Shown in pieces: positions 874 through 30,551 of a stretch of 64,000 bases of DNA; the first letter of the stretch is position 1, and the number at the start of each line of letters is the position of its first letter. The notes below the pieces were generated by a model. The model saw only the letters and a list, made by a program, of their open reading frames with translations. It did no database searches and was not told the DNA's origin. Both the position numbers and the translations under genes were made by a program. The stretch covers positions 1 to 64,000 of the forward strand of contig NZ_FOSK01000011.1 of assembly GCF_900114245.1 (NCBI RefSeq). The letters are read 5' to 3'. This stretch comes from Pseudovibrio ascidiaceicola (GTDB taxonomy: Bacteria > Pseudomonadota > Alphaproteobacteria > Rhizobiales > Stappiaceae).

Positions 874-1152
874 TTGACAGTTTAAACAATCCATCGCATG
901 GTTTAAGCGAGGCTTCGAAACCTCGTAGAGCGGTCACCGCTGCCGTTTTGTTTGGCGGTCTTTTTGTGTCTGGAGTTAGGTCTTCAAATGCAAACTCTCG
1001 CTTATGGGCGGGAGGGCGGTGAATACAATACCCTTTGCGGGGGAATAAACCCGCCTGACTCTACCAGGTTTCGAACCTCCCGCTCGCCAGTGGGTTGTCG
1101 AAAGCCTTCTGCTGAGCGGCTTGTTCAACAAGCCAGTAGAGAGGGCTTACTG
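874..1152 (+). promoter_or_regulatory. Repeated structured leader, copy A
   Basis: This 279-nt segment runs from a TTGACA box (874-879) to the ATG of the small gene at 1153. It is clearly homologous to two copies near 30.3 and 30.8 kb. Conserved parts, in order, are the TTGACA box, a segment around CGAAACCTCG, a purine-rich arm GCGGGAGG (1008-1015), a GAATACAA segment, a GGGAATAAACC segment, and the complementary arm CCTCCCGC (1076-1083). The two arms can pair into a long hairpin enclosing about 60 nt. Open frames across it (702-1022, and the 5' part of 952-1419) look like accidental reading of the RNA, because copy B keeps the structure. It resembles leaders seen in front of small prophage/satellite genes, but I cannot name an RNA family. 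Confidence 0.65.
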
Positions 1153-1419
1153 ATGACTGACACTGGAAAAGAGAAATGTGCCCATACGTCCCTTCGCAAT
1201 GAAGTGGATCAGCTTCGCTTATCAAGCAATCACCTCAAAAATCTAGTTTATTCCATGAGCGTGGTGATGAGTGAGCGTATGGAACACACTCAGGAATATG
1301 AAGCGTTGCTGACGCTGTTTGATACTGTGCGCAATCACATCAATGATGTGCAGGAAAGCGGTGAGAAAATCTCAGAGCTGCTTGATCCCTGTGCACTGGA
1401 AATCTCTAAAAGCAAGTAA
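1153..1419 (+). CDS. Small helical protein of a repeated accessory module, copy A
   Basis: An 88-residue protein of unknown function. The start is ATG 1153, preceded by GAGGG about 8 nt upstream; a longer frame from 952 would read through the conserved leader and is unlikely. The protein is charged, probably all helical, and has no signal peptide or membrane segment. Its core, with LKNLVY, SERM, ALLTL and a VRN...QESGEKI tail, aligns without gaps to the protein at 29934-30272 (LQNLAY, SERM, ALFTL, FRD...QKSCGQI), so the two are paralogues. A terminator follows at 1459-1491. Location inside the integrated element and the shared leader suggest a mobile-element gene, for example a regulator or inhibitor; this is inference. 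Confidence 0.7.
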   Translation: MTDTGKEKCAHTSLRNEVDQLRLSSNHLKNLVYSMSVVMSERMEHTQEYEALLTLFDTVRNHINDVQESGEKISELLDPCALEISKSK

Positions 1420-1458
1420 GTTGGAATGATGAGAGGCTTGCCTCTTAAGGAATATTCT

Positions 1459-1491
1459 GGCTTGGGAAGCGTGAGCTTCTCAGGCCTTTTT
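1459..1491 (+). terminator. Rho-independent terminator of the small gene
   Basis: A GC-rich hairpin (GGCTTGGGAAGC, GTGA loop, GCTTCTCAGGCC, with one or two internal mismatches) is followed directly by TTTTT. It lies 40 nt after the stop of the 1153-1419 gene. Confidence 0.75.
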
Positions 1492-1533
1492 AGTATGTGG
1501 CTGCTGAGGTAAACAAAACACTGAAAAGGGCAT

Positions 1534-2256
1534 TCAATGATGGAGCGCTGCTTGGCTGCGTTCTAATCGTTGCCTTTCTTTTGCAACTTCCTCTTTCAAG
1601 AACCAATGGCCTGTCTCGCCGTCATGTTCCGAGAGTTTTTGGGATAAGACCCTTCTATTTGAGGTCTTACAAAGAACCTCAAAGAGTGGGTCTGATACTG
1701 AGATAAACTTGGATGTTCGATTGAGTATCTGCATTGCTGCTGCTTTTGCGTTAGATGACACTGATTGAAGTTCACCTGTATTATTATTTGTATATTTATC
1801 TTTATTTCGTGGTGCTCTCACGTCACCCTTTAGCTGTTCATTTTTGCACGTTTTTTGGTCTTTTTTGTCACTGCAACGGTGTTCGGGCCGCGAGTTAGGC
1901 GCGACCATAGGTGCTCTGCTGTCACGTTTTTCATCCCCTATAGGACAGAAGGCATAATGATTGCTTTGCCCACGACCACGTGCGCGTTGAGCTTTAAAAT
2001 ATCCAGCTTGTTCTAGCTTCTTCAAAGCCCGGATTACTGTTCGCCTGCTGGTGCCTGCATCCTGCTCAAGGCGAGAGATGCTTGGCCAGGCATCTCCGGT
2101 CTTTGTATTGAAGTAGTCACACAGCGCGATCCCCACGACCTTTTCTGATGCTGAAAAGTTATGATCCCGGCACAGTTTGCTAATCCAGACAGCTTTGTCG
2201 CTGTATTGGATGGTTAGGCTGTTACAATGCTGTATCTTACCAGTTGAGCCACTCAT
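1534..2256 (-). CDS. Helix-turn-helix protein, phage/plasmid replication type
   Basis: A protein of about 240 residues. The first third reads like an HTH_36/replication-initiator winged helix (NFSASEKVVGIALCDYFN, then WPSISRLEQDAGTSRRTVIRALKKLEQAGY), a domain common in phage O-like and plasmid replication proteins. The middle is Lys/Arg/Asn-rich and probably disordered; the end is charged. The frame opens at a GTG at 2271, but GGGGGAGG sits just before two adjacent ATGs, so I place the start at ATG 2256 (2259 is possible). Codon use looks more AT-rich than in the flanking chromosomal genes. It lies between the small gene and the tRNA-Phe fragment and fits a replication or control gene of the integrated element. 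Confidence 0.65.
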   Translation of the reverse strand: MSGSTGKIQHCNSLTIQYSDKAVWISKLCRDHNFSASEKVVGIALCDYFNTKTGDAWPSISRLEQDAGTSRRTVIRALKKLEQAGYFKAQRARGRGQSNHYAFCPIGDEKRDSRAPMVAPNSRPEHRCSDKKDQKTCKNEQLKGDVRAPRNKDKYTNNNTGELQSVSSNAKAAAMQILNRTSKFISVSDPLFEVLCKTSNRRVLSQKLSEHDGETGHWFLKEEVAKERQRLERSQAALHH

Positions 2257-2379
2257 CATTTCCTCCCCCACTTTAGCAGGCGAGAAACCTTTGACAAAAG
2301 TCGCCCAGTTATTTGACGTTTAAATAGCAGTTTGACGTTTTTTACGGATCTAAGCCATTGAAATTTAGACAAGAGTTCA

Positions 2380-2427
2380 GGATTGAAAATCCGCGTGTCG
2401 GTGGTTCGAATCCGCCTCCGGGCACCA
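2380..2427 (+). other. 3' part of tRNA-Phe (GAA): attachment-site remnant
   Basis: These 48 nt match the 3' part of an alphaproteobacterial tRNA-Phe: anticodon loop TTGAAAA with GAA anticodon, anticodon-stem 3' strand TCCGC, variable loop, T-arm GGTGG-TTCGAAT-CCGCC, acceptor 3' strand and encoded CCA (2425-2427). No D-arm or acceptor 5' strand lies upstream; the sequence before 2380 is unrelated. Integrases of the tyrosine family often recombine within tRNA 3' ends and leave such a partial copy at one border. The rest of the gap 2257-2690 holds no gene that I recognise. Confidence 0.85.
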
Positions 2428-2690
2428 CTTATCTTCCCAAAATCGTTCAATCGCAAAGAGTGTATAAGCTTTGCTCTTCTCATGTGAGGTGGTGAAATCA
2501 CATTGAGAGTAGCACATCTGTTGCGTGGTAAGATTATCATTGTGGAGCCGGGCGGCGTGAGTGTGATACTCGATAGCAATCAGAAAAACTTGCGATGCGA
2601 CCTATGTTGCACAAGCATAATCCTAGTGCTGGCAGCACTGAAGTAATAGCCTCAAACAGAGCCGTAACTCTGTTTGAGAAATGATGTCAG

Positions 2691-3872
2691 TTAAAGAGGC
2701 AAGGCGCCTTCCCAGACGATTTTTCTGTAACGTTCAGGATTGGTGTCGCCCTCGGTGTTGAAGATCAACACAACACTCTCTTCGTTGAGACCAGCTTTTT
2801 GTGCCAGTTCGGCGTACTCTGCTTTTGACTTCATCGCGTAAAGCAGGCCGATGTTCAAAGCTCCGGACTCGCCGCCTGTGATCGCAGGGTCCCCTTTGAG
2901 TGGGTTGCCAAGAATGCGCATGCCGGTGGCGGCAATGTTATCTTCTGCCGAGATGAAATGATCGCCGCAATCTCTCAGGATTGGCCATGTGATCGGATTT
3001 GGTTCGCCGCAGGCCAGACCAGCCATAATGGAAGTCAGGTCACCCTCAACCGCAGTCATCTCACCATTCTCGCTGGAAACAGATTGATAAAGGCAATCTG
3101 CAGCGCGCGGCTCGCTGATCACAGACGTGAAGTTCTCAGGTCCGTACGCATCAGCAAGATAGCCCAGAACACCGCCTGCCATAGCTCCGACACCTGCCTG
3201 AAGCATAACGTGAGTTGGGTGAGCATCATCCAGCTTGGCGAGTTGGTCCGCTGCTTCTCCAGCCATCGTCATGTAACCCTGGGAGATCCAGGTTGGTATC
3301 TCTTCGTAGCCATCCCAGGCAGTGTCCTGAACAAGCTCCCAGCCGTTCTCTTCCGCTGTTTTATTCGCTAGTCGAACGGTGTCATCGTAGTTCACATCAG
3401 TCACAATGCAGTCTGCACCCAAACCCCGGATGCGCTTGACAGCTGACTGAGGTGAACCTTTGGGCATGTAAACAACAGCCTTCTGTCCCATAGCGCGCGC
3501 AGCCCATGCGACACCGGTCCCATGGTTGCCGGCAGTTGCTGTTGTAAAGACCATCGGTCGCTCAAACTTTTGCGAGACAGTCTGCAGGTCGATCTCAGAA
3601 ATATCGAGATCAAGCTTCTTCGCAAGCAAGCGGCCAAGGGCATAGGAGCCACCCAGGACCTTAAAGGCATTTAGTCCGAAGCGATGAGACTCATCCTTCA
3701 CGAAAATCGCCTTCACACCCAGTTCCTTAGCTAAGGCAGGAAGACTGGTGAGCGGAGTTGGCTCATAGCCTCGAATCTGACTATGAAACTCACGTGTTTT
3801 CTCTGCAACCTGGGTGGTGAACAGTGGGCTGGTTTCACCTGTGCGGAAACGATTGCTGCGTATCTTAAGCAT
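2691..3872 (-). CDS. dpaL: Diaminopropionate ammonia-lyase
   Basis: A PLP-dependent fold-type II enzyme that converts 2,3-diaminopropionate to pyruvate and two ammonia through 2-aminoacrylate. Length from ATG 3872 is 393 aa, close to E. coli YgeX/DpaL (about 398). Visible family features are GETSPLF near the N-terminus, VKDESHRFGLNAFKVLGG with the Schiff-base lysine at about residue 71, TATAGNHG, VYMPKGSPQ, QAGVGAMAGGVLGY (phosphate loop) and ACGEPNP. The frame opens at a TTG at 3938 without a ribosome site; ATG 3872 aligns with the family N-terminus and has GAAGAG upstream. It is last in the minus-strand operon regulator-ridA-dpaL. RidA destroys exactly the aminoacrylate this enzyme makes. 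Confidence 0.9.
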   Translation of the reverse strand: MLKIRSNRFRTGETSPLFTTQVAEKTREFHSQIRGYEPTPLTSLPALAKELGVKAIFVKDESHRFGLNAFKVLGGSYALGRLLAKKLDLDISEIDLQTVSQKFERPMVFTTATAGNHGTGVAWAARAMGQKAVVYMPKGSPQSAVKRIRGLGADCIVTDVNYDDTVRLANKTAEENGWELVQDTAWDGYEEIPTWISQGYMTMAGEAADQLAKLDDAHPTHVMLQAGVGAMAGGVLGYLADAYGPENFTSVISEPRAADCLYQSVSSENGEMTAVEGDLTSIMAGLACGEPNPITWPILRDCGDHFISAEDNIAATGMRILGNPLKGDPAITGGESGALNIGLLYAMKSKAEYAELAQKAGLNEESVVLIFNTEGDTNPERYRKIVWEGALPL

Positions 3873-3971
3873 CTTGATCTCTTCAACAGCTTGGGCAGGG
3901 GGAGGAGAGCTGCGCTCGAAGAGAGTGGGGGAACTCAATCTAAGAGCGCAGCAATAATTGTGTCGTGTAGC

Positions 3972-4355
3972 CTATTTGACGTACGCGATTGCTTCGACTT
4001 CAACCAGCGCGTCTTTCGGCAGGCGGCCTGCCTGAATGCAAGAACGTGCAGGAGCACCTTCAGTGCCAAAGACTTCCGTGTAGACTTCGTTAAATGCTGC
4101 AAAATCTTCCATTTTAGCGAGGAAGCATGTGGTCTTCACCACGCTGTCGATACCAGCACCAGCCTCTTCCAGCACAGCCTTCAAGTTGGCCAGTGACATT
4201 CTGGCCTGCTCGGTGATGCCACCTTCAGGGAATGCCATTGTTTTTGGATCAAGCGGCAATTGACCAGAGGTGAAAACGAGGTTCTCTAAAACAGTTCCCT
4301 GAGAATACGGTCCGATTGCAGCTGGAGCGTTTTCTGTAGCAACTAACTTTTTCAT
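3972..4355 (-). CDS. ridA: RidA family enamine/imine deaminase
   Basis: A 127-residue protein of standard RidA/YjgF length. It hydrolyses reactive enamines such as 2-aminoacrylate in the cytosol. Signature elements are the N-terminal AIGPYSQG, FTSGQLPLDP, the FAAFNEVYTEVFG helix and the active-site arginine segment PARSCIQAGRLPKDALVEVEAIA. The start ATG 4355 lies 5 nt after the stop of the regulator gene, so the two are probably translated from one transcript. Its place beside diaminopropionate ammonia-lyase points to a dedicated detoxifying role rather than the general housekeeping copy. Confidence 0.92.
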   Translation of the reverse strand: MKKLVATENAPAAIGPYSQGTVLENLVFTSGQLPLDPKTMAFPEGGITEQARMSLANLKAVLEEAGAGIDSVVKTTCFLAKMEDFAAFNEVYTEVFGTEGAPARSCIQAGRLPKDALVEVEAIAYVK

Positions 4356-4360
4356 TTTAC

Positions 4361-5059
4361 TTACTCTTTGCTAGTGATCTGAGTTTTTGATTCTCGGATG
4401 TACTTGTAGATGGCATGTCGCGTGATCCCGAGTTTTTCCGCCACAAGCACGGTTGCTTCTTTGAACTCGAAAATGTCGCGTTCAAGAAGCAGTTTGGTGA
4501 CAGCCTTGTTGCTGGCTTTTTGTGTCACCGATGGGTCTGCCTCCACATCTCTGATCGCCTGTTCCAAAGCACCCAAAATGACCTCAGTTGAGTTGGTGCT
4601 GAAGCGTTCTGGTGTTGTTTTCTCTGCAACCTCAGCAGCATCTGGAGTGAACGTGCTGATGATCTCTGAAAAGGGCAGGGATAGATTGATGTTCAGGCAG
4701 AACAAACCAATCGGTTTGCCAGAAGCGCCAAGGATAATCGTCGTTGCTGATTTAAGCAGCTGCCCCTCAGCATTATGCGTGAAGTAGGCTTTCGGTGTCA
4801 GGTTGCCTGTCTCCTGATAAACCCGCAGCATCTTCAAACCGAGGTCTGTTATGGGAGACCCAATCGTCCGACCCGTCATGTGTCCGTTGACGATCTTGGC
4901 AACAGATGTTTCCAGGTTTTTGAGAGAATGCACTACAACCTCACAGTGTGGCCCGATCAAATCCGCGACTGTTTCTGCAATGCGAAAGTAGTTTGCAAGA
5001 CGATCATCATCATCTTCAAAGAGACATTCTACATTTGTGAAGTCATTGAGGTTGATCAT
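4361..5059 (-). CDS. YheO/DauR-like PAS-HTH transcriptional regulator
   Basis: Residues about 12-125 form a YheO-type PAS-like sensor (FRIAETVADLIGPHCEVVVHSL, then GRTIGSPITDLGLKML and a GKPIGLFCLNINL end). The C-terminus carries an HTH (TKLLLERDIFEFKEATVLVAEKLGITRHAIYKYIRE). Family members such as DauR control amino-acid catabolic genes in response to a ligand. The frame opens at a GTG at 5146, but no ribosome site is seen there; ATG 5059 gives 232 aa, near the usual 220-240, so I prefer it with moderate certainty. It is first in the operon with ridA and dpaL and divergent from the M24 gene, and so likely regulates both arms. Confidence 0.8.
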   Translation of the reverse strand: MINLNDFTNVECLFEDDDDRLANYFRIAETVADLIGPHCEVVVHSLKNLETSVAKIVNGHMTGRTIGSPITDLGLKMLRVYQETGNLTPKAYFTHNAEGQLLKSATTIILGASGKPIGLFCLNINLSLPFSEIISTFTPDAAEVAEKTTPERFSTNSTEVILGALEQAIRDVEADPSVTQKASNKAVTKLLLERDIFEFKEATVLVAEKLGITRHAIYKYIRESKTQITSKE

Positions 5060-5382
5060 AGCTGTTTTCTCAAAGCTCGCCTGAGTACGTAATAGGTTCC
5101 TTGTGTTGGTAACCACGTTTCCCGGTGTTTGCAATGAAAAGTTCACTTCATTTAACTGTAAATGTTAATTTTGAGCCGAAATGCGTAGTGGTACTGATAT
5201 TTTATCCACTAAAGAGGATGGAAATCTAGAAATATATATGTATGAACGCCTATTACAGTCTAATATTGTTGACTGAAATGATATTGTATTAAATATGTAA
5301 CTCAAAGGTTGGCTGAACCCATTTGCGTTCACAAATTTGCAATTTCGGGTCCGGCCACTCTGTCATAAAACGGGAGCACATC
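5060..5382. promoter_or_regulatory. Divergent control region of the catabolic cluster
   Basis: This AT-rich stretch of about 320 bp separates the regulator-ridA-dpaL operon from the M24-BCCT-M20 arm. A plausible plus-strand promoter is TTGACT (5269-5274) with AAATAT (5291-5296) at 16-bp spacing. No clear palindromic operator was found. The M24 gene has its ribosome site GGGAG at about 5372-5376. Confidence 0.4.
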
Positions 5383-6549
5383 ATGTCAGAGTTTTCTTTG
5401 AGGGGCTTTGAAGTTTCAGAATTTGAAAGCCGGACAGCACGCCTGCAAAAGGTGATGCATGAGCAAAAAGTGGACGCTGTCCTTTTCACGACAGAACCCA
5501 ATGTCCGTTACTTCTCTGGTTTCTTCACTCAGTTTTGGCACAGTCCAACACGTCCATGGTTTCTGATTGTGCCTCTTGAAGGCAAGCCAATCGCGGTTAT
5601 TCCAGAGATTGGTGCCACTGGAATGGCGGCAACATGGATCGATGATATCCGTACCTGGGCATCACCATGTCCTGAGGACGATGGCATTTCTCTGGTTGCC
5701 AAGGCCATGAATGATCTGCCTAAAAAGTATGGTCGTGTCGGTGCGACGCTCGGGATTGAATCCTACCTGCGTATGCCAACAAACAACTTCCTGGAACTGC
5801 GTGACAAAGTTGAGTCAGAATTTGTTGACGTTGCGCTTGCAATTCACAATCTTCGCCAGATCAAGTCTGCGGCTGAAATCAACAAAACCCGCCAAATCTG
5901 CCGTATCACCAATCAAGCCTTCGACCTCATTCCAAACTACGCAAAAACTGGAATGACCGAGCGGGAAATCTGCAAACAGTTCAGAATTGATATGCTGAGT
6001 GCAGGTGCGGATGAATGTCCTTACATTATCGCAGGGTCCGGCCCTGATGGATATGACAGCATCATCATGGGCCCAACTGACCGCGCATTGAATGACGGTG
6101 ATGTTCTCATCATTGACACAGGCGCAGTCAGAGATGGCTACTTCTCAGACTTTGACCGCAACTGGGCGTTTGGCTCTGCAAGTGAAGAGACACTTGCTGC
6201 CTATCGCGCAACATGGGAAGCAACAACCAAGGGCTTTGAAGCTGCCAAGCCGGGCAACACGACTACAGACATCTACAATGCAATGTGGAGTGTCCTGGAA
6301 GCTGCCGGTGCTCTTGGCAATGATGTAGGCCGCATTGGCCACGGCCTTGGCATGGAGCTGACAGAGCGTCCATCCCACACAGCATCCGACAATACTTTGC
6401 TCGTACCAGGTATGGTTCTGACTTTGGAACCGGGCATGAACTACGCGCCAGGTAAGCAGATGGTTCATGAAGAAAACATCGTCATCACAGAAGACGGTGC
6501 AGAGTGGCTCACCGAGCGCGCTGCACCGGAAATGATCATCATTAAATAA
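5383..6549 (+). CDS. M24 family metallohydrolase (Xaa-Pro dipeptidase/creatinase/ectoine hydrolase type)
   Basis: 388 aa from ATG 5383 (ribosome site GGGAG); the frame from 5323 is an upstream extension. The N-terminal creatinase domain (RLQKVMHEQKVDAVLFTTEPNVRYFSGF) is followed by the pita-bread catalytic domain. All five metal ligands of M24 are in place: the two Asp in IIDTGAVRDGYFSDFDRNW, His in RIGHGLGMELTE, Glu in LTLEPGM and Glu in HEENIVIT. M24 enzymes cleave Xaa-Pro bonds or, in some lineages, C-N bonds of creatine or ectoine; sequence alone does not decide here. It precedes an osmolyte-type transporter and an amidohydrolase, which favours a small zwitterionic amide over a peptide as substrate (inference). 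Confidence 0.85.
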   Translation: MSEFSLRGFEVSEFESRTARLQKVMHEQKVDAVLFTTEPNVRYFSGFFTQFWHSPTRPWFLIVPLEGKPIAVIPEIGATGMAATWIDDIRTWASPCPEDDGISLVAKAMNDLPKKYGRVGATLGIESYLRMPTNNFLELRDKVESEFVDVALAIHNLRQIKSAAEINKTRQICRITNQAFDLIPNYAKTGMTEREICKQFRIDMLSAGADECPYIIAGSGPDGYDSIIMGPTDRALNDGDVLIIDTGAVRDGYFSDFDRNWAFGSASEETLAAYRATWEATTKGFEAAKPGNTTTDIYNAMWSVLEAAGALGNDVGRIGHGLGMELTERPSHTASDNTLLVPGMVLTLEPGMNYAPGKQMVHEENIVITEDGAEWLTERAAPEMIIIK

Positions 6550-6664
6550 CAAGCATGAGCCGTCCCCTCGGGGCAGGGAGACGGCTTCCCTCCTATGCAG
6601 TCAGGATAAATTGCTTCGGCATTGTTTGTCCTTAGCGCTGTAGCGGTTAACTCAGGGGAGAGTT

Positions 6665-8227
6665 ATGAGTAACCAAGCTGTACAACAACTAAAACAAGGT
6701 AAGATGCTCTTTGCCAGCACGATGACATTTATTGTTGTCGTGGTTTTGTCAGGCATCTTGTTCCCGGATCAACTGTTTAATGTCGGTGTAAGCACCATGA
6801 ACTATCTGACCGATAAATTCGGTTGGATCTACATGGCGGGCTCCTTTGCCTATGTCATGGTGATGTTCTTCTTCGCCTTCAGTAAATACGGTAACATCCG
6901 CTTTGGGTCGGATGACTCCAGACCAGAATTCAGCACCTTCTCATGGATTGCGATGCTGTTCTCCGCTGGTATGGGTACCGTAATGCTCTACTGGGGTGTT
7001 GCAGAGCCAGTTTACCACTACATGAACCCGTTAGAGACAACCGGCATCGCTGCACAGACACCTGCAGCAGCTGAGTTTGCAATGAAGCAGAGCTTCATTC
7101 ACCAGGGCATTCAGGCCTGGGCTGCATTCTCCGTGGTTGGTCTGATCCTCGGTTATCTGATGTACCGTAAAGGCGAAAGCGGCCTGATCAGTAACATTTT
7201 GCTCCCATGGGGCCGTGATAAAGCAAACGGCGGCTGGGGCAAGCTGATCAACTTGGTCTGTGTGTTTGGCGCCATTGCAGGTATCTCTACCTCTCTTGGT
7301 CAAACAGGCCTGTCTCTGTCCATCAGCTCTTCTTACCTGATCGGAACACCGGATGGCCCTCTGACAAAAATCATTCTTGTGGGCGCTATCACAGTCATCA
7401 CCATTCTGTGCACCACCACAGGCCTTGAAAAAGGCATCAAAATCCTTTCCGATTATAACGCTTACCTTCTTGTTGGTTTGATTATACTCGTCGGCGCGCT
7501 TGGCCCAACCACCCAGATGATCAATGTTTACTTTGATACAATGGGTAACTACATGAACGACTTCTTCACAGATGCGTTGATGTTGCCAACTTTTGCTGCA
7601 GATAAAGAGACCTCCTGGATCGGTGGCTGGCCAATTTACTACTATGCATGGGCAATCGCCTGGGCACCGTTTGTTGGTCCGTTCATCGCGCGTGTCTCTA
7701 AAGGCCGCACAGTTCGTGAGTTCATCCTTGGATCCATGATCCTGCCTTGTCTTGGTATTTTCCTCTGGGTTGCTTTCTTCGGCACAATCGGCCTTGAAGC
7801 ATCTCCAGAAGCACTTGAAGCTGCAGCTGCCTCTTCTAAAGCAGCAACCTTCATCGTGCTGGAAGACTTCCCGCTCGGAACTGTCATTTCCATTGGTGTT
7901 GTAATCGCTCTGTTCACCTGCTTCATCACATCCATGAACAGCTCAACCTTTACACTCAGCTCCATGAGTGAAGATGGCTCCCTAAACCCAAGCAATAAGC
8001 AAAAGGTTATGTGGACCATTGCACAGGGCGCTATGGCTTTGACACTGATGCTGGCAACAAAATCCGGTATCGATCTGTTGCAGTCCATCAGCTTGATTTT
8101 CGCTCTGCCATTGATGTTTGTGCTCTTCGTGGCAATGATCAGTACTTTCAAAATGTTCCGCGCAGAATTTGCGGATGAAAAGCAAGCAAGTGAGAAAACA
8201 CCAGCTATCAAAGAAGCTGCAGAATAA
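6665..8227 (+). CDS. BCCT family transporter
   Basis: A 520-aa inner-membrane symporter of the betaine/carnitine/choline family with about 12 hydrophobic segments. Diagnostic stretches are SAGMGTVMLYWGVAEPVYHY (TM3 glycine segment) and the aromatic box plus loop WPIYYYAWAIAWAPFVGPFIARVSKGR with the conserved RTVREF. No long regulatory C-terminal tail is present (it ends AIKEAAE), suggesting uptake for nutrition rather than osmosensing. The ribosome site GGGGAG precedes the ATG. It follows the M24 gene by 115 bp; a terminator at 8238-8267 separates it from the M20 gene. Confidence 0.93.
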   Translation: MSNQAVQQLKQGKMLFASTMTFIVVVVLSGILFPDQLFNVGVSTMNYLTDKFGWIYMAGSFAYVMVMFFFAFSKYGNIRFGSDDSRPEFSTFSWIAMLFSAGMGTVMLYWGVAEPVYHYMNPLETTGIAAQTPAAAEFAMKQSFIHQGIQAWAAFSVVGLILGYLMYRKGESGLISNILLPWGRDKANGGWGKLINLVCVFGAIAGISTSLGQTGLSLSISSSYLIGTPDGPLTKIILVGAITVITILCTTTGLEKGIKILSDYNAYLLVGLIILVGALGPTTQMINVYFDTMGNYMNDFFTDALMLPTFAADKETSWIGGWPIYYYAWAIAWAPFVGPFIARVSKGRTVREFILGSMILPCLGIFLWVAFFGTIGLEASPEALEAAAASSKAATFIVLEDFPLGTVISIGVVIALFTCFITSMNSSTFTLSSMSEDGSLNPSNKQKVMWTIAQGAMALTLMLATKSGIDLLQSISLIFALPLMFVLFVAMISTFKMFRAEFADEKQASEKTPAIKEAAE

Positions 8228-8237
8228 AAAACAACAG

Positions 8238-8268
8238 AGAGGCAGCCAATCTAGGGCTGCCTCTTTTA
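8238..8268 (+). terminator. Hairpin terminator/attenuator between the BCCT and M20 genes
   Basis: A perfect 10-bp stem (8238-8247 AGAGGCAGCC with 8255-8264 GGCTGCCTCT) is followed by a T run. The M20 gene starts 31 nt later with a strong AAGGAGG site, so this may attenuate rather than end the transcript. Confidence 0.8.
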
Positions 8269-23655: not shown

Positions 23656-23976
23656 AATCATACCTCGCAGCAAAAAACGAACTGTGACGATGAATAACCT
23701 GAAATATTGGAAGGGTGCTTCCATGCTGATCGAACTAAGTTGTAATGTCAGGACTGTCATGCCCTGCGGAAAAAGTTCAGCGAAGGGCTGGCATTGCTTC
23801 ATTACATTCTGTAAGACCCAATCCGACAAAAGTTTCAGCAGATTTTGCGCGTGTTAGGTGTTCCTTGCTGCGGACGGCCATAAGCCGGAAAGAACACCTT
23901 AGAACGTCGCGCCAGATGGATACCCTCAAATCTGCCCTATTAGAATATGCAGGAGTTGCCTGCAAAAGGAGGCTCT
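23656..23976. other. Gene-free interval upstream of prfC
   Basis: About 320 bp between divergent genes. No coding potential, RNA gene or repeat recognised. It must hold promoters in both directions; I found no convincing hexamers. Confidence 0.5.
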
Positions 23977-25578
23977 ATGAGCACAGCAGGCACGGAAGCC
24001 TATAAGGCACGCCGCACATTCGCGATCATCTCTCACCCGGATGCCGGTAAAACCACACTCACCGAGAAGCTGCTTCTGGGTGGTGGTGCGATCCGTGCTG
24101 CGGGGCAGGTGCGTGCTCGTGGTGAGCGTCGTCGTGCACGTTCTGACTGGATGAAGATTGAACAGGAACGCGGTATCTCCGTTTCAAGTTCCGTGATGAC
24201 GTTTGAGCGCGATGGCATCCTCTTCAACCTGCTTGATACACCGGGCCACGAAGACTTTTCTGAAGACACCTATCGTACACTGACCGCTGTTGACGCAGCC
24301 ATCATGGTGATTGACGCTGCAAAGGGTATTGAAACTCAGACCCGCAAGCTGTTTGAAGTTTGCCGGCTGCGCGATATTCCAATCATCACCTTCGTCAACA
24401 AGATCGACCGTGAAGGTCGCCACCCAATGGAAGTCATTGACGAGATTCAAGAGGCGCTGGCCCTTGATGTGACGCCAATGAGCTGGCCTGTTGGTATGGG
24501 TTCCGACTTCTTTGGTGTTTACGACCATATCGGCAACCGCTTCTTCACCTCCACTGAGGGCCGCGGTGGTGCTCTGGATACCATCAAAGATGTTAAAGGT
24601 CTGGAAGACCCTGAGTTGGTTGGTGAACTGTTCGACAACATCCGCGAAGAACTGGAAGAAAACGTGGAACTGGGCGGCGCAGGTTACCCCGAGTTCGATC
24701 ACGAAAGCTTCCTTGAAGGCCATCTGACTCCGGTCTTCTTCGGTTCCGCTCTGCGCGATTACGGTATCGACCAGATCCTTGATTTCATCGCCGCATATGC
24801 ACCACCTCCACATTCTCAGCCAGCAACGGGTGGTCGCACCATCAAGCCGGAAGAGAAAAAGGTAACCGGCTTCGTGTTTAAGGTTCAGGCCAATATGGAC
24901 CCCAAACACCGTGACCGCATCGCGTTCGTACGTCTGTGCTCCGGGACATTCAAACGCGGCATGAAGCTCAAGCACGTGCGTGCAGGCAAGCCAATCACCG
25001 TGTCCGCTCCAATCTTCTTCTTTGCAGAAGAGCGTGAGATCGCGGAAAAAGCCTATCCGGGCGACGTGATCGGCGTGCCAAACCATGGCCAGCTGCGTGT
25101 GGGCGATACCCTGTCAGAAGGCGAAGAAATCCACGTCACCGGCCTGCCAGCATTCGCGCCTGAAATTCTGCGCCGTGTGCGCCTGACAGACACCATGCGC
25201 GTTAAGCAGATGCGCCGCGGCTTAGAAGATCTAGCAGAAGAAGGTCTGGTACAGATCTTCAAACCAGCCATTGGCACCAACTGGATTGTCGGTGTTGTGG
25301 GTGTGCTTCAGCTGGACGTTGTGGTGGATCGCCTCAAAGCGGAATACCAGACAGAAATCGGCTTCGAGACCGCCATGTACAACACGGCACGCTGGATCGA
25401 GTGTGAAGACAAGCTCAAGCTTGATAAGTTCCTTGAGACCAACCGCGCACATGTGGCACTGGACCGGGACGACAAGCCTGTTTACCTCTTCAAAAACGCT
25501 TGGGAAGTAAGCTACATCGGTGAAAAGAACCCTGATATCGGCTTCCGCGAAACCCGTGAAATTGTGCACACGTCTTAA
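23977..25578 (+). CDS. prfC: Peptide chain release factor 3
   Basis: 533 aa translational GTPase that recycles RF1/RF2 from the ribosome after peptide release. The start is ATG 23977, with AAAGGAGG 8 nt upstream. G1 is HPDAGKTT, switch I ends ERGISVSSSVM, G3 is DTPGHEDFSEDTYRTL, G4 is NKIDRE, followed by the RF3 domain II (KHRDRIAFVRLCSGTFKRGMKLKHVR) and the C-terminal GVVGVLQLDVVVDRLKAEY and WIECED stretches. Length matches E. coli RF3 (529). Confidence 0.97.
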   Translation: MSTAGTEAYKARRTFAIISHPDAGKTTLTEKLLLGGGAIRAAGQVRARGERRRARSDWMKIEQERGISVSSSVMTFERDGILFNLLDTPGHEDFSEDTYRTLTAVDAAIMVIDAAKGIETQTRKLFEVCRLRDIPIITFVNKIDREGRHPMEVIDEIQEALALDVTPMSWPVGMGSDFFGVYDHIGNRFFTSTEGRGGALDTIKDVKGLEDPELVGELFDNIREELEENVELGGAGYPEFDHESFLEGHLTPVFFGSALRDYGIDQILDFIAAYAPPPHSQPATGGRTIKPEEKKVTGFVFKVQANMDPKHRDRIAFVRLCSGTFKRGMKLKHVRAGKPITVSAPIFFFAEEREIAEKAYPGDVIGVPNHGQLRVGDTLSEGEEIHVTGLPAFAPEILRRVRLTDTMRVKQMRRGLEDLAEEGLVQIFKPAIGTNWIVGVVGVLQLDVVVDRLKAEYQTEIGFETAMYNTARWIECEDKLKLDKFLETNRAHVALDRDDKPVYLFKNAWEVSYIGEKNPDIGFRETREIVHTS

Positions 25579-25691
25579 GCTTATCTCCGAAAAGCGGTTT
25601 GGACTAGAATACGCCTACAAATAAAGCCTTGGGCTCGGCGCGTGACTTGAGTGAACGCGACAGGCTCCAGGGCAGCAAGGATAAGAACAAG

Positions 25692-26735
25692 ATGAAAGAT
25701 CCAGCTCTCGATACATTGCTGCTGCCATTTGAAGACGGTCTGCTCAATTTCTTCGAAGAAGGTGCCGCTGATCAAAAGGCACTCTTCCTGCGTGCCCGCA
25801 TGGGCTTTGCCATGAATGGCATCGCCAAAGACCGCCTGATCTGCCAGCAGACATTCGCTCCAGACAGAGACAATCTGGAACGCGCTGGCTTCACAGTTGC
25901 ACCAGAAGTTGAGGGCCAGTACCCGCTGGTCATGCTGCTGCCTCCGCGCCAGCGTGACGAAGCACGTGCACTCATGGCAAAAGCCGTGAAGTCCGCAGTA
26001 GAGGGCGGTATTGTCGTTGTCAGTGCCTCCAACACAGAAGGTGCCAAGACTGCTGAAAGCGATCTCACCAAATTGGCAGGCAATACCGGCAAGGTCTCCA
26101 AGAACAAATGCCGTGTGTTCTGGGCAGAAATTACACCAGAAACCGTGAACCACGAGCTGGTGGAAGAATGGTCTAAACTGGATGCACCGCGCGAAATCAT
26201 GGAGGGCGAATTCGTCAGCCGTCCGGGCGTATTCGCATGGGACCATCTGGACAAAGCCTCTCAGCTTCTTGTCGCGACACTGCCCGAGAAACTGGCGGGC
26301 CGTGGGGCTGATCTGGGCTGTGGTTTCGGCTACCTGACCCGTGAAGTTGCCAAGCGTGAAAAGGTCAAGGCTATTGATCTTTATGAAGCAGAAAAGCGTG
26401 CGCTGGATCTTGCAGAGCAGAATCTGAAGGGTAAGACTGGTGAGGTTGCACTGGACTTTATCTGGCAGGATGCCACCAAAAAGCTGGCACGCACCTACGA
26501 CTTCATCTTCACCAACCCGCCATTCCACGCAGGTGGTAAGCAGGACCGCGCAGACATCGGGCAGGAGTTCATCAAGTCCGCCGCCCGTGGTTTGCGTCCA
26601 TCCGGTCATCTGTGGTTGGTCGCCAACCGTCATCTGCCATATGAGGCAACGCTGGATAAGGTGTTCGCGTCCTACGAGATCATGGCAGACCAGAATGGCT
26701 ACAAAGTCATCCGCGCGATTAAAGCGAATAAGTAA
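25692..26735 (+). CDS. 16S rRNA m2G1207 methyltransferase (RsmC-like)
   Basis: 347 aa from ATG 25692 (AAGGA about 10 nt upstream). Two methyltransferase-like halves: an N-terminal degenerate domain (DTLLLPFEDGLLNFF, then GGIVVVSASNTEGAKTAESDL) and a C-terminal catalytic domain with SAM motif ADLGCGFGYLTREVAK and target motif TNPPFH, the NPPF signature of N-methylating rRNA enzymes. Linker FVSRPGVFAWDHLDKASQLL is typical of RsmC. It methylates guanine in small-subunit rRNA. It follows prfC by 113 bp and precedes another rRNA-modifying gene. Confidence 0.85.
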   Translation: MKDPALDTLLLPFEDGLLNFFEEGAADQKALFLRARMGFAMNGIAKDRLICQQTFAPDRDNLERAGFTVAPEVEGQYPLVMLLPPRQRDEARALMAKAVKSAVEGGIVVVSASNTEGAKTAESDLTKLAGNTGKVSKNKCRVFWAEITPETVNHELVEEWSKLDAPREIMEGEFVSRPGVFAWDHLDKASQLLVATLPEKLAGRGADLGCGFGYLTREVAKREKVKAIDLYEAEKRALDLAEQNLKGKTGEVALDFIWQDATKKLARTYDFIFTNPPFHAGGKQDRADIGQEFIKSAARGLRPSGHLWLVANRHLPYEATLDKVFASYEIMADQNGYKVIRAIKANK

Positions 26736-26743
26736 GTAAAGCG

Positions 26744-26790
26744 CGCGTGCGCCCGAAAAGTGGGCACCGGTTTTCGGATAAGCGTACGCG
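26744..26790 (+). repeat. RPE-like palindromic element
   Basis: CCCGAAAAGTGGGCACCGGTTTTCGGATAAGCG shares its core with the repeats at 9551 and 13556 but lacks their second hairpin. It fills the gap between rsmC and rsuA and can form an imperfect hairpin. A weaker relative lies at about 25577-25612. Confidence 0.65.
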
Positions 26791-26814
26791 GCAACAGAAC
26801 CGAAGGTTCGAAAA

Positions 26815-27513
26815 ATGAGACTTGTAAAGCTATTGGCAAATCTGGGATACGGCAGCCGCAAAGAAATGCAGGCCGCCATCCGCAATGGTTGGGTCACTGA
26901 TAAAGATGGCAACCCAATCAAAGCCGATAGCAAGCTACCTCATGAAGACATCCTGTTTGATGATGAGCCACTGGACCCGCCAGAGGGCTCCGTCATCCTG
27001 CTCAACAAACCGCTTGGCTACACCTGTTCCATGAAGGATCGCGGGCGCCTTGTGTTTGACTTGCTGCCAGACCGCTACCGCGTGCGCAAACCTGCTCTGT
27101 CCTTTGTGGGCAGACTGGACAAGGACACCACCGGCCTGTTGCTGTTCACTGATGACGGCAAACTCCTGCACCAGATCATCTCACCCAAAGCAGATGCCGC
27201 AAAGATCTATGAGGTCGAGCTCGATCGCCCGATGACCGGTGGGGAAGCCGATCAGTTCGCCTCCGGTGAAATGATGCTGGAAAACGAGACCAAGCCGCTC
27301 AAACCAGCAGAATTGGAAGTCCTGAGCGAGACAACAGCCCGCCTCACACTCCACGAAGGTCGCTACCACCAGGTCCGCCGCATGTTCGCCGCCACCGGCA
27401 ACCACGTAAACAAACTCCACCGCGCCCAACTCGGCGGCCTCACACTGGACGGCGTGGAAGAGGGAAGCTGGAAGCTGCTCTCCCAAGACGACATCGACAA
27501 GATCTTTGGCTGA
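26815..27513 (+). CDS. 16S rRNA pseudouridine synthase (RsuA family)
   Basis: 232 aa. An N-terminal S4 RNA-binding domain (MRLVKLLANLGYGSRKEMQAAIRNGWV) is followed by the RsuA catalytic domain with SVILLNKPLGYTCS, catalytic Asp in VGRLDKDTTGLLLFTDDG, and LHEGRYHQVRRMFAATGNHV. RsuA forms pseudouridine 516 in 16S rRNA; RluE/RluF relatives act on 23S, so the site is inferred. It sits with prfC and rsmC in a translation group. Confidence 0.9.
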   Translation: MRLVKLLANLGYGSRKEMQAAIRNGWVTDKDGNPIKADSKLPHEDILFDDEPLDPPEGSVILLNKPLGYTCSMKDRGRLVFDLLPDRYRVRKPALSFVGRLDKDTTGLLLFTDDGKLLHQIISPKADAAKIYEVELDRPMTGGEADQFASGEMMLENETKPLKPAELEVLSETTARLTLHEGRYHQVRRMFAATGNHVNKLHRAQLGGLTLDGVEEGSWKLLSQDDIDKIFG

Positions 27514-27637
27514 TCGCTGAAAAGAGCATTCAGCCTCACTCCGGCTCCAAATGAGACATGAGACCTTTATTGCGTAAGGTCATGCCAGCAGCACTTCAAG
27601 CTTTGCAGGACATGGCCTTCTGAAATGAGGTCCATCA

Positions 27638-28027
27638 ATGCATCCAAAACTGAAGCTGGCTGCAGCTATTGTGCTCAGCGGAGTTGCTCTGGCTGGCTGC
27701 CAAAGCCCCAACCAAAAACGTATTCATGAGAGTATCAAATCGGGCCAGTATCCGCTGATCTATACAAAGAAGGTTGGCAAGTACACTTTGTCCTATGGCA
27801 AGCCAGACAAAGCGCGGAACTGGCAGTTCTTGCTCAGTATCACCCCAACCACCAATCCATTCCGGGATCAGGAAGTGCTGGCGGCGATCTTTGATACGGT
27901 CACGCCCATGTGTAACTCCCGTCTGCCAAATGCCGATCCCAACAAGTTCGGTATCCTGAGCAAGAAACCGCTCGTGGATGAGAGCACACAGACCTCAAGG
28001 ATCCTGCTGTCCTGCAAAACTCGATAG
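27638..28027 (+). CDS. Small lipoprotein of unknown function
   Basis: 129 aa. The signal peptide ends in the lipobox LAGC (Cys about residue 21), so it is lipid-anchored. The mature part is polar, with one Cys pair (PMCNSRLPN, LLSCKTR) that could form a disulfide, and a beta-rich segment KYTLSYGKPDKARNWQFLLSI. No family recognised. Single gene. Confidence 0.75.
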   Translation: MHPKLKLAAAIVLSGVALAGCQSPNQKRIHESIKSGQYPLIYTKKVGKYTLSYGKPDKARNWQFLLSITPTTNPFRDQEVLAAIFDTVTPMCNSRLPNADPNKFGILSKKPLVDESTQTSRILLSCKTR

Positions 28028-28090
28028 AGCGAAAGATAAGATAGAGCGCTGAAGCCGTTCTTCTGCGCTCATCGCCTCAAGCAATCAACA

Positions 28091-28495
28091 TCACCGCTCC
28101 GCCTTCTCCCGCACCATGTTCAGATGCGCGCGGATCTTCTCCTCATAAGCCCATGTGGAGAGCAGGTTGCCGAGCACCTTTTGGTTCGGCGTGCGCAGGC
28201 AGATCATGTAAAGCTGGGTGTCCAGCGCTGCCATCCACACCAGCGGAACCCACAGCGACCAGCAGGCGACCTCAGCCAGCACATACCCGCCGGACTGCAC
28301 AAAGACCCAACCCGTAAACCAGTAAATCCCGATGGCATAGAAGATCGTCAGCACGGTCATCAAAACACCCGCAAACAGCCCCCAATACAGCCCCTTGCGC
28401 GCCCACAGCAGCAAAGACAGGTAGAGCCCCCACATCCTGAACAGGGTCAGGAGGCGATAGAAGAACAGGCGCCTGAATATCCAGCCGAAGACCAT
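28091..28495 (-). CDS. Small membrane protein of unknown function
   Basis: 134 aa with three or four hydrophobic helices (about 8-32, 36-62, 66-92) and a basic/amphipathic C-terminus (NLLSTWAYEEKIRAHLNMVREKAER). Rich in Trp and Tyr. No family recognised. It follows the AraC-type gene on the same strand at 110 bp and may be its downstream partner. Confidence 0.6.
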   Translation of the reverse strand: MVFGWIFRRLFFYRLLTLFRMWGLYLSLLLWARKGLYWGLFAGVLMTVLTIFYAIGIYWFTGWVFVQSGGYVLAEVACWSLWVPLVWMAALDTQLYMICLRTPNQKVLGNLLSTWAYEEKIRAHLNMVREKAER

Positions 28496-28605
28496 GAACC
28501 GCTCGCGAACCAGCCAACACCGCCAAACCCTAAGGCGGCGCCCCTTAACTCTGCGATAAACCGCAGGCGCAGTTTGACGGCAACCCGCTTACCAATCACA
28601 GGAGC

Positions 28606-29496
28606 TTAAGAAAGAGGCCGTACCGGAATGCAGATCACCACTTCATGTGGTCCCGTCTCGCCGGTCATGGACGGATACAGCTGGAAGCACGGCATATTCT
28701 CCGGCTCATAACCACTCATGGGCAACCAGTCGCCATACATATATTCCCACGCGGCCTGTGATTGATCATGGGTGATCACAAAGTGTCCGCAGGCATAGCG
28801 CCCGCCGCCAACCACCATCTTGCCCACTTCACCCTCAACATCCGCTGGCCCGCGCAGCGTCAGGCAGGAGCTGAAACGCATCAGCTCCACGTCAGTCACC
28901 TGCGGGTCGTCGTGGAACAGGCACATCATCTCCGCTCCATGCGCCAGCCCGCGCGGTCCGGCCCACGCCATCAGCGCGCCAAATGCCTCGCCAAAAATCT
29001 CGGGCCGTTCCTGAAAGTTGCCCGTCCGGCGCACATAAGCCACCGTGCGCGGCGCTAGCTTGCACACCTCCGCCTTGTCCGCCACCAACCCGCTCACAGG
29101 CCGTTCCAGCACCACGGTCTCACCATCAATCGCCTCAACAGATGCGCTTGCATCCCGCCGCCACTGACTGGCCGACATGCCAAACCGTGCCTGAAACGAG
29201 CGCGCAAAGGTGGAGGGTGAGGCAAAGCCCATGTCTAGCGCTGCATCAGTAATGGAGATCGCAGGGTTCTGCTTCAGCCGCCGCGCTGCCTTCTCCACAC
29301 GCAGCCGACTGGTGAACTGGTTGACCGTCTCTCCGGTCATAGCGCGAAAGATGCGGTGAAAGTGATAGGGAGAAAAACAGGCCGCATCGGCAATCTGCGT
29401 CAGCGAAAGCTCCTCGCAGATGTTCTGCTCAATGTAATCCATCGCCCGGTTAATCCGCTGCGTATAGATGTTCTTCTGCAAAGCTTCATGCCGCAT
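28606..29496 (-). CDS. AraC family regulator with GyrI-like ligand-binding domain
   Basis: 296 aa. Residues about 14-115 are the double HTH of AraC/Rob type (RAMDYIEQNICEELSLTQIADAACFSPYHFHRIFRAMTGETVNQF, then AALDMGFASPSTFARSFQARFGMSASQWR). Residues about 130-296 form a GyrI-like domain (RTVAYVRRTGNF, GGRYACGHFVI, YMYGDWLPMSGYEPENMPCFQLY), which binds hydrophobic or cationic compounds. The order is that of SoxS/Rob-like multidrug sensors. Target genes cannot be told. Confidence 0.9.
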   Translation of the reverse strand: MRHEALQKNIYTQRINRAMDYIEQNICEELSLTQIADAACFSPYHFHRIFRAMTGETVNQFTSRLRVEKAARRLKQNPAISITDAALDMGFASPSTFARSFQARFGMSASQWRRDASASVEAIDGETVVLERPVSGLVADKAEVCKLAPRTVAYVRRTGNFQERPEIFGEAFGALMAWAGPRGLAHGAEMMCLFHDDPQVTDVELMRFSSCLTLRGPADVEGEVGKMVVGGGRYACGHFVITHDQSQAAWEYMYGDWLPMSGYEPENMPCFQLYPSMTGETGPHEVVICIPVRPLS

Positions 29497-29933
29497 AATC
29501 AGCCCCCCAAACTTGCAAGGAGACTACAACATCTCCCCCAAAAGGGGAGCCTGATTTTAACGCGAAGCAAAGGTAATCCGGCAAAACGGGCAGGGGGTAC
29601 AACATCAAAGGCACAGCTCGGTCAGGGATAAAGAAAACTCCACCCACTCTATGCTGTCGCCGCCCACCGTTCTTTGCAATTCTTGCTATGTTTGCATCCC
29701 ACATGCCACGGCCTGAAAAGGCGCTGGCCTGCGAAGGGATGACAGCTCCGCAGACCAGCAGGGCACCCTTGGCGGCAATGCGGGGTGTATGCGCGTTCCG
29801 CCTCCGGCACCACAGCGGCTGGCACGCACGGCGCCAAACGCTCAAGCACAGTCGGTCTGCACAGGGACATCGTGGCAAAACACCCGCCACGGGCACCTAT
29901 GCGGCCATCAAAAAAGCCGATTGCCTGAGATGA
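29497..29933. other. Gene-free interval with terminator near 29916-29945
   Basis: About 437 bp; the minus-strand frame 29486-29896 shows no family likeness and a composition of non-coding type. An imperfect hairpin (29916-29945, with GCCG/CGGC ends and CCTGA/TCAGG core) ends on the minus strand in TTTTTT and overlaps the stop of the small gene at 29934, so it probably terminates that gene. Confidence 0.5.
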
Positions 29934-30272
29934 TCAGGAACCGGCTTTGTCTGGAAACACCACTGTTTTGGTTATGGGCTGCGGCTGGTCGACCTGCTCC
30001 CGACCGTATTCCCGAAACCTGCTTTTGGGCATGGGAGAGGAATACGCATCAATAATCTGTCCGCAGCTTTTTTGAAGAGCTTCCAGTCGGTCGCGGAAGG
30101 CATAATGCAAAGTGAACAAAGCATCCCGTTCACTGCTGTCCTGCATCCTCTCACTCAGCAACAGCTGCTGCATATAAGCAAGGTTCTGCAAATCAGATGC
30201 AGCGACGAGCACTTCGTCTATTTCATTTTGGAAAGTATTTGTGGTGCCACAGGCACATGCGGAACTGGTCAT
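29934..30272 (-). CDS. Small helical protein of a repeated accessory module, copy B
   Basis: 112 aa, paralogous to the protein at 1153-1419 over about 60 gap-free residues (NEIDEV..., LQNLAY, SERM, ALFTL, QKSCGQI). It adds a Cys-containing N-terminus (SSACACGTT) and a basic/polar C-terminal tail of about 35 residues. The start ATG 30272 has AGGGG 7 nt upstream. Its leader, 30273-30551, is homologous to the leader of copy A. Function unknown. Confidence 0.7.
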   Translation of the reverse strand: MTSSACACGTTNTFQNEIDEVLVAASDLQNLAYMQQLLLSERMQDSSERDALFTLHYAFRDRLEALQKSCGQIIDAYSSPMPKSRFREYGREQVDQPQPITKTVVFPDKAGS

Positions 30273-30551
30273 TTCAATGCCCCTTGTATTTGGCAGTTGA
30301 AGGACCGCGCGTCAGAAGGGCTTTCGACGACCCACTGGCGAGCGGGAGGTTCGAAACCTGATACAAGGCAGGCAGGTTTATTCCTTCCCGAAGGAAGTGT
30401 TGTATTCACCGTCCTCCCGCTCATAGCAAAGGGTTTGCGCCCTTCAGAAAAAAGGCACAAAAAATCCGCTAGTTACGGGAGCGGTAGCCGCTTGTATCGA
30501 GGTTTCGACGCCTCACACATGAATGTGGAATGAAACACCGCCCTTGTCAAA
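30273..30551 (-). promoter_or_regulatory. Repeated structured leader, copy B
   Basis: Read on the minus strand it runs from TTGACA (30551-30546) to the ATG at 30272, 279 nt as in copy A. Hairpin arms GAGCGGGAGG (minus 30422-30413) and CCTCCCGCTC (minus 30349-30340) are perfect 10-bp complements; between them lie the conserved GAATACAACA, an inner hairpin CTTCC-TTCG-GGAAG and GGAATAAACCTGCC. Sequence differs from copy A at many loop positions while the arms remain paired. Confidence 0.65.

Follow-up and report, generated by a model that had tools for sequence, protein, structure and literature searches.

In phages P1 and P7 the immunity antisense RNA C4 is processed by RNase P; in the text accessible, the same source describes a group of 21 C4-type small RNAs (sRNAs) in Acinetobacter, 15 of them full-length, with variable a' loops (PMC5320573). 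In P4, as far as the accessible text goes, the leader-derived CI RNA base-pairs with two flanking sites, seqA and seqC, and brings about premature termination (PMC4825925). These are among the closest described systems to the modules reported here, which lie on contig NZ_FOSK01000011.1 of Pseudovibrio ascidiaceicola (assembly GCF_900114245.1), in a window of 64,000 nucleotides (nt) comprising positions 1-64,000 of the forward strand, and in which a structured RNA sits in the leader of a gene for a small helical protein. The RNA belongs to Rfam family RF02221 (sRNA-Xcc1). We propose, with a probability of about 0.83 and from sequence comparison, that in these modules it is an antisense RNA that arises from the leader and represses the following gene, similar to C4 and P4 CI, and that it would provide resident immunity. 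RF02221 in general would work in the same way.

The published picture of sRNA-Xcc1, in the parts of the literature accessible, is a different one. It was mapped in Xanthomonas as a discrete RNA of 88 nt by rapid amplification of cDNA ends and ~100 nt on a Northern blot (PMC2996969), and is described as under HrpG/HrpX control in Xanthomonas and as having predicted bacterial and plant targets in Xylella (PMC12189769, PMC12444791); one sRNA-Xcc1 paper proposes vesicle delivery to plants. In Xanthomonas integron cassettes it precedes symE, and there the text available mentions only a divergent mechanism (PMC12444791). One paper gives sRNA-Xcc1 and C4 antisense RNA as separate families, and no literature linking sRNA-Xcc1 to C4 or P4 immunity was found in the texts accessible, among which subscription journals are scarcely represented.

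The module leaders belong to RF02221

An earlier note, made from the sequence alone, had described a duplicated module at 874-1419 (+) and 30551-29934 (-), and both copies are present there with a common layout, in the order promoter-like TTGACA, hairpin, terminator, structured RNA, Shine-Dalgarno sequence, and small open reading frame (ORF). A search with Rfam covariance models places both leaders in one family, RF02221, copy 1 at 55.4 bits (expectation value E 3.8e-9) and copy 2 at 48.7 bits (E 2.7e-7), the latter below the curated cut-off of 53 bits. The likeness of the two copies is therefore not a matter of chance, and a chance duplication is further ruled out by the presence of 20 RF02221 matches in the P. 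ascidiaceicola genome (three in the window and 17 elsewhere), of which eight of the 20 are over the cut-off. The third window copy, overlooked in the first reading, is in tandem with copy 2 and has a promoter, an attenuator, and an RNA (48.4 bits, E ~3e-7, below the cut-off), with the a2 complementarity lost. The RF02221 core folds as a three-stem structure in the Rfam model, and the 87 positions of the model agree in length with the mapped 88-nt sRNA-Xcc1.

RF02221 is present in 11 of 16 Pseudovibrio genomes (P. ascidiaceicola included), with 1 to 20 copies per genome, and is confined to one of seven genera among 61 genomes of the family. It occurs in 55 of 398 genomes drawn across Pseudomonadota, again including P. 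ascidiaceicola, and its core pattern is found in at least 120 stretches of viral contigs; 19 of 20 viral loci found by this pattern and checked, among the matches listed, score over the cut-off, the exception being L245 (loci are numbered with L). The viral set used below comprises 80 loci of these stretches, with 81 RNAs that have enough flank, 64 after removal of redundancy, and 54 with an ORF.

Whether the leader is an ordinary coding region, as the earlier note had asked, is settled in 84 full genus copies. RNA start and ATG are 141-151 nt apart, with steps of one base, and just 23 of the 84 have the ATG frame open through RNA and spacer, so that the leader is not coding. That note also gave 279 nt from TTGACA to ATG in both copies, which is correct for copy 1 (874 to 1153), while the distance in copy 2 is 278 nt (30550 to 30272); it spans 271-286 nt in the genus (82 of the 84 full copies, with TTGACA found), and the exact figure thus has no weight. 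The isrK family was also considered for the window attenuators and rejected, the match in copy 2 (30459-30526) being at chance level (E 0.79) and control genomes matching in 10 of 14. The features of the three copies are as follows, with proteins given in amino acids (aa).

874-902, + strand: copy 1 promoter-like boxes, TTGACA 874-879, 17 nt, CATGGT 897-902; consensus match only
909-930, + strand: copy 1 upstream target hairpin, a1 914-922, b1 925-930
929-966, + strand: copy 1 attenuator, antiterminator GCGG..CCGC 930-940, its 3' arm common to the terminator with T run 937-966
1007-1092, + strand: copy 1 RNA, RF02221 (sRNA-Xcc1), seeds b' 1059-1064 and a' 1067-1075
1097-1106, + strand: copy 1 downstream target a2
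1136-1145, + strand: copy 1 downstream target b2, overlapping the Shine-Dalgarno sequence
1153-1419, + strand: copy 1 small helical protein, 88 aa, type A
1456-1491, + strand: likely terminator closing the type A homology unit, read from sequence
29934-30272, - strand: copy 2 small helical protein, 112 aa, type B
30280-30289, - strand: copy 2 downstream target b2, at the Shine-Dalgarno sequence
30319-30328, - strand: copy 2 downstream target a2
30333-30421, - strand: copy 2 RNA, RF02221, 48.7 bits, seeds b' and a' at 30350-30369
30458-30492, - strand: copy 2 antiterminator/terminator
30491-30514, - strand: copy 2 upstream target, a1 30501-30509, b1 30491-30497
30522-30550, - strand: copy 2 promoter-like boxes, TTGACA and CACATT
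30735-30823, - strand: copy 3 RNA, RF02221, 48.4 bits, without a small-protein ORF; a1/b1 kept at 30893-30911
30924-30952, - strand: copy 3 promoter-like boxes

Two seeds co-vary with targets on both sides of the RNA

In the P. ascidiaceicola copies the 3' part of the RNA contains two short elements, b' and a', which differ from copy to copy. They are complementary upstream to the hairpin region a1/b1, at the antiterminator 5' arm (antiterminator and terminator overlap each other), and downstream to a2/b2, of which b2 runs into the Shine-Dalgarno sequence; this pairing is only partly kept in L001 and in the degenerate copies L013, L018, and L020. Complementarity was compared, free of alignment, between own flanks and the flanks of all other loci for four pairings (a' upstream, a' downstream, b' upstream, and b' downstream). 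Own complementarity is higher in all four, with 0/20,000 permutations each, in the P. ascidiaceicola genome (n = 20), and all four pairings likewise give 0/20,000 in the genus (n = 96 of 96 matches) and in a phylum set (n = 59, from 60 of the 96 non-own matches, mostly the best). When a 12-nt window is slid along the RNA, a large excess appears only over b', a', and the window between them, with genus values for b' and a' of +1.5 and +2.4 nt upstream and +2.1 and +1.1 nt downstream. Minor excesses that permutations rarely match occur upstream at windows -81 (genus, +0.11) and -21 (phylum, +0.39) and downstream at window -15 (genus, +0.11; phylum, +0.45).

Column covariation was computed from a genus alignment of 44 copies, one per seed combination, with 8 loci and those near contig ends omitted. 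It is 0.326 for a1-a' plus b1-b', against 0.113 shuffled (0/500), and 0.475 for a2-a', against 0.179 shuffled (0/500), and structures slid along the alignment reach at most 0.084 and 0.180, respectively. The 64 nonredundant viral RNAs (among the matches listed) have the same two-seed by two-target profile. C4 served as a positive control in the same test (30 loci, one per genome, C4 being found in 42 of 299 genomes) and gives two seed windows with upstream/downstream excesses of +2.25/+3.17 and +1.80/+2.06 (0/5000); RF02221, like C4, has two seeds with co-varying targets on both sides. A third, weaker excess joins the RNA 3' end to the downstream flank in C4 (+1.40), in the viral set (+0.75, among the matches listed), and in the phylum set (+0.45), and is perhaps a further contact.

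The terminator/antiterminator triad is present in 87 of 95 genus copies, against a shuffled mean of 1.6. Complementarity of at least 6 at b2 is found in 87 of the 93 genus loci with an ORF call, a few of these calls being spurious (behind ORF-less copies); its end is at a median of 10 nt before the start codon, and within 30 nt in 87/87. In the phylum set 29 of 53 loci have b2 of at least 6, and 25 of these are within 30 nt of the start.

Genes behind the RNA

The 54 genes behind the RNA in viral contigs (among the matches listed) have Pfam matches to the antirepressor-type domains Bro-N (15), KilA-N (11), AntA (10), Rha (6), ORF6N (6), and P22_AR_N (5), figures that are domain matches and not distinct proteins, such that a given protein may appear under two domains; no family was found for at least three of these genes (L249, L252, and L293, from ten doubtful proteins scanned singly). 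At genome loci, 55 genes of 64 loci were scanned, nine loci having been dropped for lack of a convincing ORF, and these include Bro-N (5), Rha (4), SymE (4), KilA-N (2), and XAC0095 (8 of 55), with others at 1 or 2 and the remainder with no family or scattered ones. Antirepressor-type cargo is present at two Pseudovibrio loci, with KilA-N in L021 and Rha with an ANT domain in L022, and the window copies are without such genes.

Several of these loci have features of their own. The NCBIfam name of XAC0095 bears a type III secretion label, and its position behind RF02221 suggests that it is a phage-type cargo instead. A recurrent protein of 117-192 aa (as called) with a common N-terminal motif lies behind RF02221 in L049, L065, L066, L075, L076, L147, and L156; that of L065, scanned alone, has no Pfam match. 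In viral contig L298, two RF02221 RNAs of 75.7 and 70 bits are separated by 249 nt that contain no ORF; they have the same a' and different b' seeds and an antirepressor-like gene behind, so that tandem RNA-only copies occur in phages too. In viral contig L250, three CRISPR-DR4 repeat matches (2202-2349, -) are located ~1 kb from the RF02221 RNA.

The small helical protein

The proteins of copies 1 and 2 align over 81 columns, 24 of them identical (30%) and 4 with gaps, with a BLASTP E of 5e-13 in a single comparison; the earlier note had aligned them over about 60 residues without gaps. They represent two types, A of ~88 residues and B of 88-134 residues, both under purifying selection, with a median ratio of nonsynonymous to synonymous substitution rates of 0.17 for type A (24 copies) and 0.23 for type B (43 copies). 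Mutual homology of type A copies mostly stops ~400 nt past the RNA. AlphaFold2 predicts the copy 1 protein to be a helical hairpin (residues 3-43 and 49-77; mean predicted local distance difference test score, 85.6; predicted template modeling score, 0.67).

That no described family accommodates the protein, as the earlier note put it, holds across scans of Pfam (only stray matches of a few members to unrelated families, best E 0.00074), PHROGs (no convincing relative of the two window proteins, best E 0.047), NCBIfam (best E 0.034), and PADLOC (best E 0.039), the last two with one member each of 22 and no convincing family. A profile search of the Protein Data Bank gave only weak matches to helical proteins (best E 0.014), a viral fold library has no match to the helical hairpin at E 0.001 or better, and no viral, phage, or plasmid relatives were found (P0002 in viral contigs and plasmids; P0001 in phages). 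Profile comparison also gave no kinship with XAC0095-type proteins. A pattern scan of named genomes, which detects close relatives only, returned 34 loci, all in Pseudovibrio, and a profile search of 150 genomes of the order found the protein in the P. ascidiaceicola genome only. By these searches, the small protein is a new family in a slot that is elsewhere filled by toxins and antirepressors. A distant paralogue without an RF02221 match, L233 (C41:15395-15613 of the same genome), is located right behind an AraC-like frame, as judged by eye.

Seed codes and ORF-less copies

The 20 copies in the P. ascidiaceicola genome have 20 different seed pairs, which combine 7 versions of a' with 18 of b', and 92 genus copies have 46 seed pairs, a count that is approximate because seeds were cut at fixed offsets from the RNA end. 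Seed pairs are repeated within a genome 4 times, against 10.3 in shuffles (37/5000 as low), for which vertical descent from an already diverse set could be an alternative source. The upstream target half of L001 (C42) misfits its own RNA and by eye resembles a fit for the RNA of L019 (C27), as if modules had recombined.

In four cases an RNA-only copy, its ORF-less status assigned by hand, lies 345-395 nt upstream of a full module. At one locus with both flanks alike in three strains, the ORF-less RNA is without an attenuator or small ORF (read from the alignment); the scaffold is kept, the promoter region is identical at 64 of 70 positions for two strains and at 41 and 37 for the third, and the seeds differ. 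The seeds of L024 are exactly those of L004, and those of L090 exactly those of L083, both full modules at the same locus in other strains; L013 has no exact seed partner, its nearest full modules differing at 3 of 24 positions, and none of these three has the seeds of its own neighbouring module. Window copy 3 has seeds one base of 24 off those of L119 and L120, related modules (one flank shared) in two other strains. By duplex energy, L024 and L018 have the matching module as their best upstream target (L004 for the former, L119 and L120 for the latter), while that of L013 is L006 of its own genome, and for L090 both L112 and L016 are ahead of L083; downstream, other loci are best for all four ORF-less RNAs. 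It is conceivable but doubtful that the ORF-less RNAs are inherited immunity genes against modules of other strains, with the cassettes as competing selfish units whose allele recognition is RNA-coded and exchangeable. Seed turnover that leaves relics explains the pattern of these four as well as immunity selection does. As seen by eye, repeats of the form GGGATCCAGAGC or GGGATCCATAGC lie in intergenic DNA beside the tandem RNAs, at ~30600-31160 of the window and where type B copies without an ORF are flanked.

Genomic context of the window copies

A Pfam scan of ten nearby ORFs shows copy 1 next to an FG-GAP/RTX protein and an HTH_36 protein and copy 2 next to an AraC/GyrI-like regulator and a 587-aa protein with no family. 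The placement of copy 1 inside an integrated element is not confirmed; these ten ORFs, to which the search was confined, include no integrase. The ends of homology were inspected for terminal repeats and target duplications as signs of cassette mobility, with nothing convincing seen.

A proposed mechanism and its alternatives

Each module would be a single transcription unit, consisting of a promoter, a1/b1 with the attenuator, the ~87-nt RNA, a2/b2 around the ribosome-binding site, and the small gene. The RNA, excised from the leader or transcribed alone, would act as an antisense repressor. Pairing of a' and b' with a1/b1 would occupy the 5' arm of the antiterminator and let the terminator form, and pairing with a2/b2 would cover the Shine-Dalgarno sequence. 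With seed pairing at both targets, the resident unit would keep its own gene off and would also silence any incoming copy with the same seeds, which amounts to immunity. Comparison among the loci establishes the family and its layout with the attenuator, the co-variation of the four pairings, where b2 lies, and the antirepressor and SymE cargo of relatives, whereas release of a free RNA in Pseudovibrio, its action in trans, and repression itself we infer. More tentatively, the helical protein, from its place in an antirepressor/toxin slot, may be harmful or inducing, that is, toxin-like or antirepressor-like. The co-variation of seeds and targets, the same profile in C4, and the antirepressor cargo together argue that RF02221 works like C4 and P4 CI. 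The idea of a mobile-element regulatory cassette comparable to P4-type leader and immunity RNAs, advanced in the earlier note, thereby gains two seeds with two co-varying targets each, a leader terminator, and viral antirepressor cargo; the concept stands, with the qualifications that the RNA was already an Rfam family and that the element context of the window copies is unconfirmed.

Several observations weigh against this proposal. Downstream pairing is the weaker, with a2 of at least 6 in 28 of 59 phylum loci and b2 of at least 6 in 31 of 59, and duplex energy ranks the own RNA first downstream in 9 of 17 copies versus 14 of 17 upstream (17 of the 20 P. ascidiaceicola copies, the 3 ORF-less omitted), with the own RNA as low as 15th downstream in L012 and 16th upstream in L001. 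In the genus alignment, further pair types are no more frequent than in shuffles (197/500 and 246/500 as high), a2 pairs changed on both sides likewise (190/500 as high), and the outermost a pairs are open in 21 and 28 of 44 sequences. The strict triad rule holds in only 21 of 59 phylum loci (shuffled, 0.7), and minimum-energy folds are unremarkable, with z scores of 0.54 for the attenuator stretch and -1.73 and -2.02 for the RNAs. The C4 model has no match up to E 1 in 780-1500 and 29900-31200, and the small protein has no homologue of known function.

An attenuator acting only in cis, like a riboswitch or folding timer, in which a single transcript switches between the alternative pairings that a' and b' make with their partners, with no free RNA and no immunity, would account for all pairings being on one transcript and for a1-a'/b1-b' and a'-a2/b'-b2 each being nested. 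The core has its own three-stem structure, however; the RNA is discrete in Xanthomonas in the text accessible, C4, whose profile is the same, is known to be an antisense RNA (PMC5320573, as far as its accessible text goes), and ORF-less RNA copies persist with the scaffold largely kept, so that such an attenuator is quite improbable. Still less credible, and in our judgment very nearly to be dismissed, is the published reading, a virulence sRNA that acts in trans on many targets in the chromosome or in plants: the HrpG/HrpX control in Xanthomonas and the predicted targets in Xylella speak for it in the accessible portions of those papers (PMC12189769, PMC12444791), but the conserved complementarity sits in the RNA's own flanks and changes with them, and the family occurs widely, in viral contigs as well as in many Pseudomonadota.

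Two further readings concern the protein. It could be toxic when unrepressed, with the RNA as antitoxin and the cassettes as addiction modules of type I toxin-antitoxin kind, a possibility that we hold somewhat short of even odds; SymE toxins fill the same slot at 4 of 55 genome loci, and the high copy number and the private seed pair of each copy fit, but the RNA is encoded upstream on the same strand instead of opposite the gene, the viral slot contains mostly antirepressors (among the matches listed), and the protein model has no known toxin fold. Alternatively, it could inactivate the repressor of some mobile element, as Ant does, given that antirepressor domains fill the slot in phages (among the matches listed) and at L021 and L022 in Pseudovibrio. 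No sequence or fold likeness to antirepressors was found, though, there are up to 20 copies per genome, and no element was seen beside the window copies (ten ORFs), making this role rather unlikely.

As a leader-encoded, two-target antisense immunity RNA, the proposed system is known in kind. What appears new from the sequences is the family assignment (as far as found), the cargo, and the scale and apparent privacy of the codes within one genome. A widespread Rfam family would gain a concrete mechanism and a target, the adjacent downstream gene, and sRNA-Xcc1, linked to plant disease, may be read more simply as an immunity RNA of phage type that stands guard over antirepressors, SymE, or other cargo, with a hint of symE silencing in Xanthomonas integron cassettes. 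The 20 RNA-target pairs with different codes in one genome are also a natural set for studying how short seeds separate regulators.

Comparison with known systems

C4 (RF01695, clan CL00128), which controls ant, is like RF02221 a three-stem leader RNA of 87 model positions with two variable seeds and targets on both sides, has antirepressor cargo in phages and the same co-variation profile, and, by the accessible text on Acinetobacter (PMC5320573), is present in multiple copies in one genome. It differs in sequence and covariance model, RF02221 being in no clan, and the window modules differ from C4 in having a new small protein as cargo. With the C4 model giving no match and RF02221 outside the clan, the claim is that the RNA works like C4, and not that it is C4.

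P4 CI resembles the window modules in being a leader RNA with upstream and downstream sites, and the modules have a terminator-antiterminator triad at which termination would occur; the likeness is one of layout, and the modules do not show the P4 cargo. sRNA-Xcc1 of Xanthomonas shares the Rfam family with the window RNAs, was mapped there as a discrete RNA, and has symE as a neighbour in integron cassettes, although in the accessible literature it is not presented as a repressor of the gene behind it, and the Pseudovibrio gene codes for a helical protein. IsrK (RF01394) of prophage Gifsy-1, in the text available, is comparable to the window leaders as a terminator leader before an antirepressor and as a structural homologue of P4 SeqA (PMC4825925), but it is reported to activate anrP, and its match at copy 2 is at chance level.

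The three RNA families also meet in the same places. The P. ascidiaceicola genome itself has two C4 RNAs over the C4 cut-off (L234 and L235, C39), before small ORFs of 85 and 133 aa, and in L234 an isrK match (38.5 bits, below the isrK cut-off) lies directly upstream of the C4 RNA. In the prophage-like viral contigs L261 (2422-2834 and 3565-3753) and L289 (843-1672), isrK over its cut-off is followed by C4, and in L261 isrK, C4, and RF02221 stand in a row before one gene, an arrangement in series which suggests that these RNA types serve the same role.

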